From: Meloidogyne chitwoodi
Lineage: Eukaryota > Nematoda > Chromadorea > Rhabditida > Meloidogynidae
DNA length: 64,000 nt
Direction of reading: 5' to 3'
Assembly: GCA_015183035.1 (NCBI GenBank)
Contig: JACZZP010000005.1
Location: 2,480,001 to 2,544,000, forward strand
A program made the position numbers and the translations under genes. The first letter of the stretch is position 1. Each line of letters begins with the position of its first letter. Under the pieces are notes generated by a model. It ran no database searches and was not told where the DNA came from. It was given only the letters and a program-made list of their open reading frames with translations. Positions 1 through 60,673 of the stretch are shown here, piece after piece.

Positions 1-818
1 TGAATAGCAGATTCTTTTGTATTAATAAGTTGAGTAATTTGGAAAATATCCATGATAAAATCTGTGATTTTTAAAATTACTGTAAAATGATAAGGATTAG
101 TGATAAGAAAAAACTGATATCAGATTCGTAATAAGCGACCTCGATAACCCCTAAAAACACGTTTTTACTATGCCACTGCGAATATTTGGGGTGGAGCCCC
201 AATAGGTCAAGATTGCCATTAATTGTTGATAAACAAATTCAAATTTTTTTCTGTTTTGTCTAGGCAGGAATTGAAAATTTCCAGACCTTAAGAGAACAGA
301 AATTACAAGGAAAATTAATTTAGTCAAAAGATATTTGACTTGCAAAAATATCAAGAGCTTCGAGAGCTGCAGAAATCATACAAAACTAGAGATACCGATT
401 TAAGTAAAACATTTAATAAAAAATTTACTATTTTACAAATTTCAAACAAACCAGCACGGAATTAATTTTAAAGTTCTCTCGAAGGTTCTGTCTAAACCCT
501 TCATAATACTCAAATGTCCTCAAACATTGATTTTGATTTAAATTGTCGACGTGGAAAACGTGTAAGGAGTCGCTCTCTTCTTTCCCCCTTTTCCCTATTA
601 AGAGAAAAAAGTGAGTGAACAGACAGTGAAAAGTGAAAAAAGACAGTGAGTGTTAGAGAAAAAATAATTTCAACACATGCACTCTCGCGCATTTCTCCCC
701 TCATGCTTGCACTAAATCACACTTAAAAATGCCTCATTAAGGGGAGGGGAGAGGAGACGTTTTGTATTTCTTTTTTTTCTTAAGCATTCCTTCTTTCACA
801 TTTTTATTTACCTTAAAA
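1..818. other. Intergenic DNA upstream of the SXP/RAL-2 gene
   Basis: I see no gene here. Positions about 100-185 resemble the inner part of the 601-bp inverted-repeat element at 39326-39926 (shared text CTGATATCAGATTCGT and CCTCGATAACCCC), so this is probably a relic of that family. A hairpin of the dispersed TATTTTTGTAAG family lies at 319-350 in minus orientation. Positions 733-757 form a purine-rich run just before the gene. Open frames here are low-complexity and unlikely to be coding. Confidence 0.6.
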
Positions 819-3800
819 ATGCGTGAAGGCTATCCTCTACCCAAAATTAAATTTTATTTAATTTTAATTTTTTCATTGGTTAATGTAACGGAGTCTTTTA
901 TTAACGGGGAATGGTCAAATTACAAAGATAAATTAGTTGAAAATGAACAAAATTTGAAAAAAGGTGAAGAAATAGCTTTAGGCGATAATTATGTCAATGG
1001 TGATGAAAATAAAAATGTTGAAATGATTAAAAATAAAAATGAAAAAATTGAAGGAAATGAGAACGGGAATGAATTGTTAAGCGATTTAAATGATACTAAA
1101 GGAGTTGAAAATTTTAAAGAAAAGGATAAGGAAACAAAAAATCAAGATGAGGGAGTACAAGGTGATCAAATATATTTTTTTATTTTTAATAAATTTTGGT
1201 CGTTTTTTTTAGTTCAACAAAGGGTTTTGATTGAAAAGAATTTAAAAATATAATAATTTTATTCGCCTATATTCGTAAAAGCATTAAATTAAGAAAGTTC
1301 CTATAATTAAAGGGTCTCTTCTCTTTAAAGTCAAAAATTCCCAAAAAATTTATTAAACATTGGCCAATAAAAATTTACCTAGAATAAAATAAATAGTCAA
1401 AGAAATACTTTGACTTACAAAAATAATCGTTTTATCATTAATTATTCCAACAAATTTATTTTTCCAATAAGTATAAATTAAATCATTAATGGTAAATTTA
1501 ATATTATCAAATAAAAATAAAATAATTATATTAAATTAAATCTAGTCTAATTCAGTTACATAAACCCTCTAATTGAGAGTAATTTTTCTATTTGAATTTA
1601 CCAATTCTGAAAGTAAAATTCAAATAAAATAAATAAAAATTAATTACCTAATTTAGTCTTAGCAAAAGAGCTAAGACTTACAAAAATACAGACACAAAGG
1701 AAAAATTTTCACCATAATGTTGTAACTTCAGTAAATTTAAATAGAAAAATATAAATAATAATTTATACTATACAGTTTTCTTGGACCATGAGATCGCAAA
1801 AATAACAAAATAATTCCCAATTTTAATTCATCTAAAATTCCTTAAATCTCTTAAAATATTTCAATTTTCTTCTCTTCTCTTTTAATTTCACAAAAATATT
1901 TTTTAAAAGGTGAAAACACTCAATTGATAAACAAATTTCCATTCCTTAGCAACTTGTCGGATGAATCTATAAAGCAATTTAAAGAAATAACAATTAATCC
2001 AAATTTAACAAAAAGCGAATTGGAAATACAACGACAGCAATGGGCAGAGAAACAAAATTCTAAAATTATGGTAATTTAAATATTTTTTAAAAATATTTCA
2101 AAAATTGAGGAATTTTTGCCTATAAATTATTTTTTTTAAATTTTTTTAAATTTAATTTTATTTACATAATATCAAATTTTTCAAAAAAAATTTATTTAAT
2201 TTTTATGGTATATCTTGACGTTAGGATGTTGTCGGTTTCTGGCATTATTTTTGTAAGCCAAGTTTTCTTAGGCTAAAATTTATTAATACCTTTAAGTAAG
2301 CAAAAAATAAAATTTTCCTTATAATACGGTATCTCTACTAAGGAATTAATTTCGTTCTTAAATGACAGATTTGTTCACTCTAAATTTTTATCTAATTTAT
2401 TTTTTTGGCGGAAATAACAAACATTTAGTCTTAGCAAAAGATAAGACTTACAAAAATATCAATAAAAAAAAATGCAATTTAATTATTAAAATCCATTGTG
2501 TCTAATATCTTTTTATTAAATTTATTATTTAATACGTTGTAAATTAATTATGTGTTTATAATCTTTTAATTTAATTAAGAGTTAAAATCAGTCAATTTTT
2601 CTGTCTTTTTCATTGATGGATAGAAGAGAAATTAATTTAAAAATATTTCCAAAATTTTAGTTTTATTAAAGTGATGATTGTCTTTTTCGGTTATTAATTA
2701 TAGACTTTATTCTTTAAAAAGAGAAATTTTTTAAAATAAAAATTTTAAAATTTAACAGTGAAATAATTTTAAAATTTTAGTAAAATAGGTTAAAAATAAT
2801 TAAATATAATCAGCTTTTTATCCAACAAAAATTTCAATTTAATTAATTTAAAACATTTAATTATCCAAGTCTGCATAATAAATAATATGCTAAAAATTAG
2901 ATCATTAAAATAATTAATTAAATTTAAAAATTTGTACCAGAGGCTTCATTACAATGATATTTTTGTAAGTCAAAGTATTCTTTGACTAAAAATTAAAATA
3001 TTTAACAAATTTAAGAATAAATCTAACCCAATAAACAATAACCTCTTAAAAAATTAAAAGTCTTACGACTCAAAAAGTTAATCAAAATTAGGCAAAATAT
3101 TCCTTCCCCCAACATTTTTAAACTTTCAAAAAAATTTTCAAAAAATCAGCTCTCTAGAAGCCTCCTTTTTTAGATGGTCTATCAATATTTTAAAGTTCGA
3201 TAAAAAAATTTCCTCCGAATCATATTCGCTGTAATTTGTATCATTTGTAGAGCTCGAAAAACTATCGAATGAGCTATGATAGACCTTCTAAAAAGGAGGC
3301 TTTGTAGAGATATGATTTTTTGAAAAAACTTTTTGAATGTTCAGAAAATTTAGGGGGAAGGAATAATTCAAAGTTCGATAAAAAAATTTATAATAGGAAA
3401 TCATTAACTATACTTAAACTTAAATTTTGTCTTATAGAAATTAAAATTTTGGAATATTTTTTAATTTTTTTTTATTAATTTCATACATATCCTCAAAATA
3501 GTAAAAACCAAAAATTGATAATTCTTACTCAAACACTTGTAAATTAAAAAAAGATATATATAATTTAATTTTTACAAAGTATTAAATTGTAAATTTAGTA
3601 AAAAAGATATATTAGATAAGATGGATTTAATTGAAATTGTTGAATTTGCTCGAGTAGATTTATTTTTGTAAATCTTAGCTTTTGCTAAGATTAAATATTT
3701 CTATGATTTTTTTTCATTTCTCACTCAAATTGAATAATTTATAAATTATTTAGGGTGAAAAAATGAATTATTCAAGACAGTTTAATTAAATGTTTTTTTA

Positions 3801-59400: not shown

Positions 59401-60673
59401 TTAATTCATTTATTTTTAATTTTAACTGTATTTTTGTCATTTCTTAGTTATACCTCCCCAACTGATGAGGATCGTTTTTGCCTCGGACAACTTCCCAATT
59501 TACACAGACCTCAAGACGTTGTTAATGCACGCAAATGTATTGGAAGAGGTAATAAAAATTTTGAAAATTCTTCAAAATTTTCTTTACAATTTGTCTAGTT
59601 TAAGTGAACACAGCCCATTTATTCGCAATAAAATATATTTTGTTTTCAAGTCATTTTTTGGTATAAAATATTTTCTTGCGAATAAATAGGGTATTCACCT
59701 AAAGTAAACAAAACCTTTTTCCTTGAATTTTAAAAAAATTTTTAATTTCAATTTTTTAAAGGTGCACGAATTTACAACATTGGGGGCGATGTTTACTGCG
59801 AAACATTGAGTGAAACTGCTAAGGTATTCATTCAAGCGCCAAGTGCTTCAGCACAACTCTCTGCGCCAGCAGCGACTGTTTACAAAGTTCCACAATGTAT
59901 AAAAAAATTATTTATATTTTTGGAAAAATTTGACCTTTTTTTAAAAAATTAGATTGCAATCTAAAACTCTTTTCAATGAAAGATTTTGGAAAGTTGCTTA
60001 ATACTGCTGTCAAACAAGGATTTGAATCTGTCTATTCTTTAACTAGGTAATTTTTTATGCAAATTAAAAAAAAATAATTTAAAAAAAATTAAGATTTTGT
60101 ACAATTCGCATGTCTTTTGTAAAAGGTTGGGGTAGTGAATATCATCGACAAAGTGTCACCTCTACACCTTGTTGGTTAGAAATTCATCTTAATGGACCTT
60201 TGGCATGGCTTGACCGTTAGTTAAAAATAACTTTTGTTTAAATTAAAATTTTGTTTTCTTGATTATTTTTGCTTTAAATTATGATATAATTTATTTTTAT
60301 ACCCATTATTAGCCAAGGGATAATCCTGGCTTCCAAAAATAAATGCACCTGCTAATAATCGACATGTTGTCACCCTCATTTATAAATCATATTTAACCTT
60401 AATTAACCTCAATTTAATATATTATGTAAACAATAGGTTTAAAAATTGTTTTATCAATTCCATTGAGTATCCCTGCCTAAATTACTCTAATTACTACTCA
60501 TTTACTCGATTGCCTTACTCTCAATAGACCCGTTCCTTTCATGTAAAAGCTCTTTTCAAATTCATAATCTATTAAACAAAATTGTTAAAAATAATTTTTT
60601 GAAATTTTTCTTTTAAGGTGTATTAAGCCAAATGGGTGCACCACCAAACAACAAATGCACTAGCTATTCATAA
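56498..60673 (+). CDS. Receptor-regulated SMAD transcription factor
   Basis: Thirteen exons: 56498-56548, 56918-57057, 57116-57198, 57741-57860, 57905-58008, 58077-58359, 58948-59048, 59097-59389, 59448-59548, 59762-59896, 59953-60046, 60094-60215, 60618-60673; 560 residues. The MH1 domain has [48 protein letters not shown] Ser/Gly/Asn-rich linker follows. The MH2 domain has [87 protein letters not shown], ending [14 protein letters not shown]. The terminal S-x-S makes it a receptor substrate. It should carry TGF-beta/BMP-type signals to the nucleus. The L3 loop has His (BMP type) but Ser where vertebrate BMP SMADs have Asp, so the subtype (SMA-2/3 or DAF-8 like) is open. Confidence 0.95.
56724..60341. 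repeat. Six dispersed hairpins in SMAD introns
   Basis: Minus: 56724-56755 (AGTCGAG/CTCGACT) and 60307-60341 (AGCCAAGG/CCTGGCT). Plus: 57296-57329 (AGTCAAT/ATTGACT), 57580-57614 (AACCATAA/TTATGGTT), 58486-58523 (AGCCATA/TATGGCT) and 58836-58871 (AGCCATAG/CTATTGGCT). The last three share the flank TTTTTGGAA and a TTACTTAATATTAAAT-like module about 80 bp upstream. Compare 57580 with 58486: G-C to A-T exchanged on both arms. Confidence 0.87.
59590..59705. repeat. Imperfect foldback in a SMAD intron
   Basis: TTTAAGTGAACACAGCCC and ATTTATTCGCAATAAAATAT at the left pair with TATTTTCTTGCGAATAAAT and AGGGTATTCACCTAAA at the right. It lies in the intron between the exons 59448-59548 and 59762-59896. 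Confidence 0.65.

Follow-up and report, generated by a model that had tools for sequence, protein, structure and literature searches.

Nematode piRNA loci are among the closest described systems to the DNA analysed here. In C. elegans they are reported to have a core motif ~40 nt upstream and to give capped precursors of ~26 nt (PMC3597512), and a low-melting pause has been described downstream of them (PMC6436959), with published pauses at ~28 and ~48 nt (PMC7917550). Clustering of such loci is not universal, those of Pristionchus being reported as spread (PMC6436959). Meloidogyne is reported to lack both PIWI and piRNAs (PMC5934874, PMC4524723), and small-RNA sequencing of M. incognita J2 found no piRNAs, according to the available text of that study (PMC4524723).

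Units that end in a covarying hairpin

In the window, a 64,000-nt stretch of Meloidogyne chitwoodi DNA, both strands carry copies of a hairpin motif between 319 and 60341, as the initial annotation had described. These hairpins are the 3' ends of larger units with a shared promoter-like block and a unique stretch of ~26 bases (Table 1), a context that the annotation had overlooked: the conserved unit reaches ~90 nt further upstream and includes a hypervariable segment directly 5' of TATTTTTG. Across 194 copies (those of the window and of 15 fetched 10-kb loci), the order is a 28-nt AT-rich motif, a near-random segment and then TATTTTTGNRAG-hairpin-CTAAW, with 62 nt from the start of the motif to the start of the variable segment.

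Chance expectations for the hairpins were taken from 10 second-order Markov simulations. Requiring TATTTTTGTAAG at no more than one mismatch and a hairpin score of at least 7 gave 50 window copies against 1.0 expected, and TATTTTTGTAAG at up to two mismatches gave 78 against 15.3, a net of ~60 that agrees with the "about 68" first counted. A stricter definition gives 56 units. The spacing is uneven, with none of the 56 strict units between 21,031 and 29,791 and none after 60,429. The genome-wide collection that the annotation had proposed, using exact matches to TATTTTTGTAAG-N12-30-CTAAA, found 161, compared with 3 for the pattern read backwards.

Table 1. Units and hairpins in the window (positions in the window; hairpins marked as outside the strict set are not among the 56 units)
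Feature	Span	Strand	Motif	Variable segment	Hairpin	Remark
unit	319-438	-	411-438	351-376	319-350	
unit	1392-1511	-	1484-1511	1426-1449	1392-1425	
unit	1652-1775	-	1748-1775	1689-1713	1652-1688	
unit	2162-2277	+	2162-2189	2224-2245	2246-2277	variable segment: only itself in genome (≤3 mismatches)
unit	2424-2542	-	2515-2542	2459-2480	2424-2458	
unit	2871-2990	+	2871-2898	2933-2957	2958-2990	
unit	4634-4753	+	4634-4661	4696-4721	4722-4753	
unit	5698-5819	+	5698-5725	5760-5787	5788-5819	
unit	9310-9431	-	9404-9431	9343-9369	9310-9342	
unit	9547-9668	-	9641-9668	9582-9606	9547-9581	
unit	10160-10281	-	10254-10281	10195-10219	10160-10194	
unit	10824-10942	+	10824-10851	10886-10910	10911-10942	
unit	12147-12266	+	12147-12174	12209-12233	12234-12266	
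unit	12357-12477	-	12450-12477	12390-12415	12357-12389	
unit	13580-13693	+		13642-13660	13661-13693	weak motif (score -2.7)
unit	14601-14722	-	14695-14722	14635-14660	14601-14634	divergent pair with 14753-14878
unit	14753-14878	+	14753-14780	14815-14842	14843-14878	divergent pair with 14601-14722
hairpin	15397-15434	-				divergent partner of 15547-15671; outside strict set
unit	15547-15671	+	15547-15574	15609-15637	15638-15671	
unit	16540-16661	+	16540-16567	16602-16625	16626-16661	
unit	16930-17050	+	16930-16957	16992-17015	17016-17050	
unit	18180-18305	-	18278-18305	18214-18243	18180-18213	
hairpin	18422-18457	+				divergent partner of 18180-18305; outside strict set
unit	18554-18673	+	18554-18581	18616-18641	18642-18673	
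unit	18998-19117	-	19090-19117	19032-19055	18998-19031	
unit	19319-19438	-	19411-19438	19353-19376	19319-19352	
unit	20229-20348	-	20321-20348	20263-20286	20229-20262	
hairpin	20529-20663	+			20631-20663	best motif off position (-102)
unit	20762-20881	-	20854-20881	20796-20819	20762-20795	divergent pair with 20913-21030
unit	20913-21030	+	20913-20940	20975-20995	20996-21030	divergent pair with 20762-20881
unit	29792-29912	+	29792-29819	29854-29879	29880-29912	
unit	30328-30450	+		30390-30416	30417-30450	weak motif (score -1.6)
unit	31652-31775	+	31652-31679	31714-31742	31743-31775	
hairpin	32594-32739	-			32594-32626	best motif off position (-113)
unit	34248-34365	+	34248-34275	34310-34333	34334-34365	
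unit	37688-37803	-	37776-37803	37721-37741	37688-37720	
unit	39131-39248	+	39131-39158	39193-39215	39216-39248	
unit	40369-40493	+	40369-40396	40431-40459	40460-40493	
hairpin	41996-42102	+			42069-42102	best motif off position (-73)
unit	42922-43041	+	42922-42949	42984-43008	43009-43041	
unit	45781-45908	-	45881-45908	45814-45846	45781-45813	
unit	45988-46114	+	45988-46015	46050-46081	46082-46114	
unit	47399-47518	+	47399-47426	47461-47485	47486-47518	
unit	48145-48269	+	48145-48172	48207-48235	48236-48269	
unit	48805-48917	+	48805-48832	48867-48885	48886-48917	
unit	49290-49411	+	49290-49317	49352-49376	49377-49411	
unit	49512-49645	+	49512-49539	49574-49609	49610-49645	22-nt stretch of variable segment: once in genome (≤3 mismatches)
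unit	50111-50223	-	50196-50223	50143-50161	50111-50142	
unit	51633-51754	-	51727-51754	51666-51692	51633-51665	
unit	51789-51913	-	51886-51913	51822-51851	51789-51821	
unit	54189-54304	-	54277-54304	54222-54242	54189-54221	
unit	54386-54502	-	54475-54502	54419-54440	54386-54418	
unit	55422-55542	-	55515-55542	55453-55480	55422-55452	
unit	56724-56838	-	56811-56838	56756-56776	56724-56755	weak motif
hairpin	57192-57326	+			57297-57326	best motif off position (-105)
unit	58400-58522	+	58400-58427	58462-58487	58488-58522	22-nt stretch of variable segment: once in genome (≤3 mismatches)
unit	58746-58868	+	58746-58773	58808-58837	58838-58868	
unit	60308-60429	-	60402-60429	60342-60367	60308-60341	

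The stem arms do vary between copies and still pair: in a set of 217 distinct hairpins, 96.1% of the cells for stem pairs 2-5 hold a pair, compared with 72.2 ± 1.1% when the arms are redealt among copies of equal length. When matches were chosen by flank and tail alone (214 kb) and G.U was counted as paired, at least four of the outer five pairs formed in 143 of 168 matches, and all five in 114, leaving 25 poorly paired; arms drawn from different copies gave four or five outer pairs in 51% of draws. G.U outnumbers A.C by 81:8 in the 217 distinct hairpins, by 55:9 when every match by flank and tail in the fetched DNA is counted and by 14:4 in the window alone, although A.C pairs do occur (9 in 140 hairpins). 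The pairing and the bias towards G.U both support the earlier proposal that structure matters. The alternative offered with it was that template switching corrects one palindrome arm against the other in the absence of selection, which would account for stems that pair despite having different sequences in different copies. Such correction should, however, be strand-symmetric and leave G.T about as frequent as A.C. The excess of G.U therefore disfavours it and indicates that one strand folds, which points to RNA. Arm-to-arm correction also leaves the upstream motif and the clusters described below unexplained, and we regard it as extremely improbable.

The upstream motif, the variable segment and their distribution

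As at 21U/piRNA loci, a conserved motif lies upstream at a fixed distance. In a scan seeded with the consensus and allowing starts from -120 to -49, its best place was at -98 to -78 in 182 of the 194 copies. The motif was also recovered from random starts. Trained in this way on the 138 copies of the fetched loci and applied to the 56 window copies that had been held out, it placed best within 8 nt of -88 in 48 of them; the held-out copies had a median score of 6.8, compared with -1.3 for the sequence downstream of them. Training the other way round, on just the 56 window copies, failed to recover the element. The Ruby core GTTTC is absent from the module consensus TTGCATAATATTAAATATTTTAATTAAT; a TTTCA-like 3' half occurs in a minority of motifs, with C at the relevant column in 28%.

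We also considered whether the motif is the genome's own U1/U2/U5/U6 promoter element. Units have a median motif score of 8.9, against a background of 3.1 (95%) and 5.3 (99%). Of six full-length U2 upstream regions (two further U2 hits were left out of the scoring), five scored 0.4-1.7 and one 3.7, with the best place at -62/-63; three of nine U1 hits gave -1.6 to -4.3, three of four U5 hits -0.3, 0.9 and 3.2 (the last at -62), and two U6 regions about -2. Two divergent U2-like loci scored 6.5 at -83. Among the regions scored, the motif is not recognisable as that element.

The variable segment has a median length of 26 nt (mostly 20-32 nt) and a mean GC of 36%, compared with 10% just upstream (194 copies). 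In an alignment on the motif, GC is 0.21 at +61, rises to 0.33 at +62 and remains within 0.31-0.43 through +83; mean GC is 0.36 at -26 to -4, 0.10 at -83 to -47 and 0.12-0.23 downstream of the hairpin. A YRNT initiator at +61, one of 22 offsets, is only weakly raised (0.16 against 0.11 expected, n = 173). Counted from motif +62, the T-tract begins ~28 nt and the stem ~37 nt downstream. As at 21U/piRNA loci, a unique, guide-sized and GC-richer segment is followed by a low-melting pause. These values bear on the idea that the units encode small structured RNAs, with the hairpin itself as the product and the variable segment as unconstrained filler. The hairpin is indeed the most constrained part, with covariation, but filler in this genome should be AT-rich like its surroundings, whereas nothing else in the unit is as GC-rich as this segment, which also has sharp edges. 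Moreover, the stems are short and their sequences diverse, and Rfam covariance models gave no match at the gathering score in the window and none at E ≤ 1 in 14000-21500. We consider this idea improbable.

In 93 pairs of copies with promoter identities of 80-100% and hairpin identities of 87-88%, the variable segments have an identity of 0.47-0.52 against a baseline of 0.45-0.47, which is about chance level. Units 18180-18305 and 14601-14722 are identical over the compared 63-nt promoter block and the hairpin and differ in the variable segment. Each of three variable segments searched genome-wide (22 nt, up to 3 mismatches) found only itself. Among the 274 genome-wide matches listed (61 further matches exist), 233 lie in C25 at 0.12-1.06 Mb or C26 at 1.90-2.58 Mb, two domains of 0.94 and 0.68 Mb that make up 3.4% of the genome; such clustering in domains, on both strands, is also a feature of 21U/piRNA loci. 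Dense two-stranded clusters in two subchromosomal domains could also be arrays of sites that bind proteins or organise chromosome structure, such as sites resembling meiotic pairing centres, but this explanation predicts neither a hypervariable guide-sized segment nor a one-strand bias of G.U over A.C, and it seems to us very unlikely.

The initial annotation had likened the hairpins to the ends of HUH-type or Helitron-like elements. The units could be non-autonomous mobile elements (Helitron/HUH-type or MITE) that moved as DNA, with the terminal hairpin as transposase recognition structure. Flanks are unlike between copies, homology stops, by eye, at the outer hairpin ends in a divergent unit, copies with similar promoters also have common hairpin subtypes, and folding of one DNA strand would equally give the G.U bias. 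As in Helitron/HUH elements, a short hairpin is followed by CTAA, which fits a CTRR end. The HUH/Helitron reading is nevertheless unsupported, because copies that are nearly identical in promoter and hairpin match only at about chance level over an internal stretch of mostly 20-32 nt, making conservation non-contiguous. Against it also stand the confinement of most listed copies to two domains, the promoter-like motif at a fixed distance from the GC step and the lack of a conserved body; no insertion signature was seen, target duplications and empty sites not having been searched for systematically. Overall, movement as DNA is an unlikely explanation.

A candidate repertoire of small-RNA genes

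We think it likely that each hairpin is the 3' end of an autonomous small-RNA transcription unit of ~120 bp and that the units constitute a piRNA-like guide repertoire, a reading for which we count the resemblance of their geometry to that of published C. elegans loci. Counting against it are the reported lack of PIWI and piRNAs in the genus, a motif with neither a GTTTC core nor a recognisable snRNA-type element, the only weakly raised YRNT, the failure of training on the window copies, and the A.C pairs and poorly paired matches. What the sequence itself shows is the motif with its fixed geometry, the GC step, the hypervariable segment, stems that covary on one strand, and the clustering; that the units are transcribed, from which start and by which polymerase, that the hairpin ends transcription, and that a guide is made and loaded into an Argonaute are what we infer, as follows. 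The AT-rich promoter element, starting 62 nt before the variable part, would recruit a polymerase, most likely Pol II via a SNAPc-like factor. Transcription would start at or near motif +62 and proceed through the locus-specific segment, until the polymerase meets the T5 tract and then the RNA hairpin, resulting in a pause and termination or in cleavage, either by Integrator or by a nuclease that the hairpin directs. The variable segment would be the guide or its precursor, and several hundred such genes, mostly in the two domains, would work as a guide repertoire in the manner of nematode 21U-RNA/piRNA loci.

The guides would probably be loaded into a non-PIWI Argonaute. There are 38 Piwi-domain exon hits in the genome, ~14 loci by manual grouping; of four loci read in pieces, two were searched, one being AGO-like and the other giving weak matches (HrAgo1, 30.0 bits; Piwi-like protein 1, 29.2 bits). 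More tentatively, at somewhat less than even confidence, a lineage without PIWI may have retained, or evolved anew, a piRNA-like system comprising several hundred autonomous guide-RNA genes, most of them in two domains. In such a system, promoter and structured RNA terminator would be inherited together as a frame around a guide that is exchanged or hypermutated much faster than the frame, and a worm-specific Argonaute would load the guides.

According to the available parts of the literature, nematodes other than those of clade V and the plectids have lost piRNAs, and RdRP pathways compensate. A clade IV plant parasite with hundreds of loci built like piRNA genes would put this view in question again. 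The units would also give a DNA-only route to such loci in genomes that lack RNA data and a naturally occurring structured terminator on which the ending of short capped RNAs could be tested, and their constant frame with a changing guide allows the fast turnover of piRNA sequences to be tested by comparing close copies.

Comparison with known systems

SNAPc-dependent snRNA genes combine a promoter element ~60 nt before the start with a stem-loop near the 3' end and termination by Integrator. The units share the upstream element at that distance and the 3' stem-loop, but have no conserved RNA body, and their motif is unlike the examined U1/U2/U5/U6 upstream regions.

The 21-22U RNAs of Strongyloides ratti, also of clade IV, are piRNA-like, have AT-rich flanks, come from both strands and form two main clusters, there on one chromosome (PMC9203780). 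In contrast to the units, the available text of that report finds no upstream motif and mentions no hairpin (PMC9203780), and those RNAs are known from RNA whereas the units are known from DNA alone. Plectus piRNA loci have a promoter position of the Snap-complex type and Pristionchus loci a strong pause signature, both as here (PMC6436959); in contrast to these, as far as the available text describes them, the units have a motif unlike the genome's own snRNA promoters and a hairpin after the pause.

C. elegans type I 21U-RNA loci, which carry the Ruby motif, are likewise autonomous units with an upstream motif at a fixed distance, an AT-rich spacer, a unique guide-sized segment, a low-melting pause downstream and two large clusters. 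The units differ in lacking GTTTC, in a motif start at -62 and in the covarying hairpin after the T-tract; they apparently number hundreds rather than >15,000, in a lineage reported to lack PRG-1. We found no description of a covarying hairpin after a 21U/piRNA-type locus in the available text of published work on nematode piRNA loci. Judged by sequence, the units are most likely a new variant of autonomous small-RNA genes, and by analogy their anatomy is that of nematode 21U/piRNA loci, minus the Ruby GTTTC core and plus a covarying hairpin.

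Stem pairing and the strand that folds

The initial annotation described some 68 dispersed hairpins with constant flanks and covarying stems. Hairpins are present in the window far above chance, with 50 copies at ≤1 mismatch where 1.0 was expected and 78 against 15.3 at ≤2 mismatches, and three exact patterns gave 161, 87 and 87 matches in a search of the genome (47.48 Mb, 30 contigs), compared with 3, 1 and 3 when read backwards. The hairpins are thus real, but what was described is less than their full extent: each is part of a larger unit of about 120 bp, in which a 28-nt AT-rich motif (the putative promoter), a spacer and a variable segment precede the TATTTTTG-hairpin.

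Paired arms are commoner than unpaired ones. Among 168 copies picked by flank and tail alone within 214 kb, at least four of the five outer pairs form in 143 and not in the remaining 25. The genome-wide lists yielded 217 distinct hairpins that were typed. Pairing at positions 2-5 of their stems holds in 96.1% of cells, as against 72.2 ± 1.1% (maximum 76.0% in 500) when the 3' arms are redealt among copies of equal length. Pair types were counted in hairpins with ≤2 non-Watson-Crick pairs, giving 1120 Watson-Crick, 81 G.U, 8 A.C and 62 other pairs in the 213 typed hairpins kept. The fetched DNA, from which no rows were dropped by hand, gave 728 Watson-Crick, 55 G.U, 9 A.C and 45 other (140 of 168 kept), and the window alone 14 G.U and 4 A.C (41 of 49 kept).

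Arm-to-arm correction, raised initially as an explanation of the paired stems that needs no selection, is a two-strand process and predicts G.T about as often as A.C, whereas the G.U:A.C ratio found is 6:1 to 10:1. This argues against correction and says that folding takes place in the strand that reads TATTTTTG-hairpin, with the constraint on the stem acting on that one strand. The folded molecule may be single-stranded DNA of that same strand, to which the asymmetry would apply equally, but RNA is the simplest reading.

We also considered, and dropped, two readings of the hairpins as terminators. An endogenous giant virus with hairpin terminators is out because the window (C26:2480001-2544000, 24.4% GC) carries animal gene pieces in short exons: in a Pfam search GH5 cellulase and MH2 exceed the cut-offs, and SPRY and zf-C4 (C4 zinc finger) fall slightly under them. 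GH5 cellulase genes are known in plant-parasitic nematodes. Ordinary termination of protein-coding genes is out because the hairpins come after the upstream motif and there are few long ORFs nearby.

A constant frame around a variable segment

Averaged over 194 copies (56 strict window copies and 138 from 15 fetched 10-kb loci), GC is 0.10 at -83 to -47 upstream of TATTTTTG and 0.36 at -26 to -4, where single columns are little informative, with 0.12 past the hairpin and 0.20-0.23 further on. Expectation maximisation from random starts recovered the motif consensus TTGCATAATATTAAATATTTTAATTAAT, and with this as seed and starts permitted between -120 and -49, 182 of the 194 copies had their best place at -98 to -78. 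Aligned on the motif and counted from its start, GC is 0.21 at +61, rises to 0.33 at +62 and remains within 0.31-0.43 up to +83. Between +62 and TATTTTTG lie a median of 26 nt (20-32 in 170/182); a T5 tract begins about 28 nt on from +62 and the stem about 37 nt on. In a held-out test, training on the 138 loci copies placed the motif ≤8 nt from -88 in 48 of the 56 window copies; all downstream control stretches scored below the median test score. Training on the 56 window copies only ended in another optimum and did not recover the element. In an initiator search YRNT was weak at best in the units.

The promoter and hairpin, which together we call the frame, are inherited, and the variable segment between them is not. 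Unit pairs with promoter identity of 0.8-1.0 (5 + 88 pairs) have hairpin identity of 0.87-0.88, compared with 0.58-0.59 in unlike pairs, while their segments reach 0.47-0.52 against a baseline of 0.45-0.47 and the 60 nt downstream 0.58-0.59 against 0.54-0.55. Two minus-strand units, at window 14634 and 18213, agree completely over the compared 63-nt promoter block and over the hairpin and differ in the segment. Each forms one half of a divergent pair, in the order hairpin, segment, promoter, promoter, segment, hairpin; homology in these pairs, judged by eye, stops at each hairpin's outer end. The segment either evolves much faster than the frame or gets exchanged. Recent duplicates proved uninformative as a clock for the segment; the part of contig C16 that was checked (C16:17001-27000) is 99.96% identical over 2,581 bp to C25:648950-651530.

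Possible targets were sought with the last 20 nt of the 154 of 182 segments that were long enough. At ≤2 mismatches in 345 kb of fetched sequence, 11 had a second match; in ten cases this was the same place in an overlapping locus, and in the eleventh a single AT-rich match. Three segments searched genome-wide matched themselves only.

Features located in the window and in one fetched stretch (L027)
Feature	Location	Strand	Remarks
Fivefold tandem array of units	L027 865-1573 (C12:2,545,865-2,546,573)		Spacing 166-171 bp; similar promoters and hairpins, five unlike segments
TTTTTGTAAGCCAATCATAG copy	window 51115	(-)	GC-rich repeats (GGCCGGTTTACCGC) replace or interrupt the hairpin
ORF with GH5 cellulase match	window 36813-37262	(-)	PF00150, 1.1e-14

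Genomic distribution

Among the matches listed, 233 of 274 lie in C25:120,591-1,055,149 or C26:1,903,236-2,581,804, two domains that together span 1.61 Mb (3.4% of the genome). A few places are matched twice among the 274, and 61 matches of the 161-match pattern lie beyond this number. The other 41 listed comprise nine on C12, 19 on C16/C17, three on C1 and ten scattered singles, with pairing in some (C7, one on C28) but not in all. The C16 part, and by its match places C17 too, is a redundant assembly copy of part of C25, so the C16/C17 counts are partly redundant. Extrapolating from the 56 strict window copies, our guess is 600-800 units genome-wide. Units occur on both strands, and neighbours <450 bp apart in the window and 15 loci are same-strand in 53 cases, divergent in 12 and convergent in 12.

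Three matches at C1:2,535,700-2,594,468, remote from both main clusters, have longer GC-rich stems (GTYGRGGCA..TGCCTCRRC). Two contig ends are repetitive: that of C4 (1-10000) is a satellite of about 168 bp, whose unit has the palindrome GGCCAAAAT..ATTTTGGCC after TATTTTTTTAG, and that of C2 (1-10000) is a tandem array with a period of 1,199 bp.

Comparison with nematode small-RNA loci

By analogy, the arrangement of the unit is that of nematode piRNA genes. Excerpts of PMC3597512 describe, for C. elegans, an 8-nt core that precedes each 21U by about 40 nt, and capped precursors of about 26 nt; here the motif starts 62 nt before the segment. At piRNA loci, a transition from high to low melting is described as marking the pause and termination site, and downstream sequence by itself alters expression (PMC6436959, in part); the polymerase is reported to pause around 28 nt and again around 48 nt, the longer product being cut by Integrator (portions of PMC7917550). 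This geometry leads us to propose that the motif would drive transcription, that the segment would be a guide precursor of about 26 nt, that the T-tract may act as a pause and that the RNA hairpin may act as a terminator. No comparable hairpin at piRNA loci appears in the excerpts consulted. Among the open-licence papers listed on small RNA, piRNA and 21U clusters in Meloidogyne and M. chitwoodi, on clade IV small RNA with an upstream motif and on piRNA hairpins or terminators, no title or abstract opening describes the unit.

Against membership among piRNA loci, GTTTC is absent from the motif, which is unlike the snRNA promoter elements examined in this genome. Upstream regions of U1, U2, U5 and U6 were scored, and in six full-length U2 the motif fits best at -62/-63, which equals its distance in the units. 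Because five of these six scores fall under the 95% background level, we do not claim that the motif is an snRNA promoter element. Two divergent U2-like loci (L035 and L036), changed at their 5' ends, also differ in the upstream region, where the unit motif reaches a score of 6.5 at -83.

PRG-1 and piRNAs are reported missing in Meloidogyne (PMC5934874, PMC4524723) and outside clade V (PMC4323106), with plectids added to the piRNA-bearing nematodes by a later paper (PMC6436959), as far as the available portions of these sources go. The genome holds 38 Piwi-domain exon matches, which group into roughly 14 Argonaute loci. Pieces of four loci were read and two searched against PDB: one is AGO-type (AGO 102-103 bits vs PIWI ≤49), and the second matches HrAgo1 (30.0 bits) and Piwi-like protein 1 (29.2 bits) equally weakly.

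The best reading of the units is as autonomous, piRNA-like small-RNA loci, in a lineage for which PIWI is reported absent. A PIWI-free analogue of the piRNA system would not be far-fetched, since in Strongyloides ratti, also of clade IV, excerpts of PMC9203780 report clustered piRNA-like 21-22U RNAs. Those RNAs are reported without an upstream motif, whereas the units here, known from DNA alone, have one.
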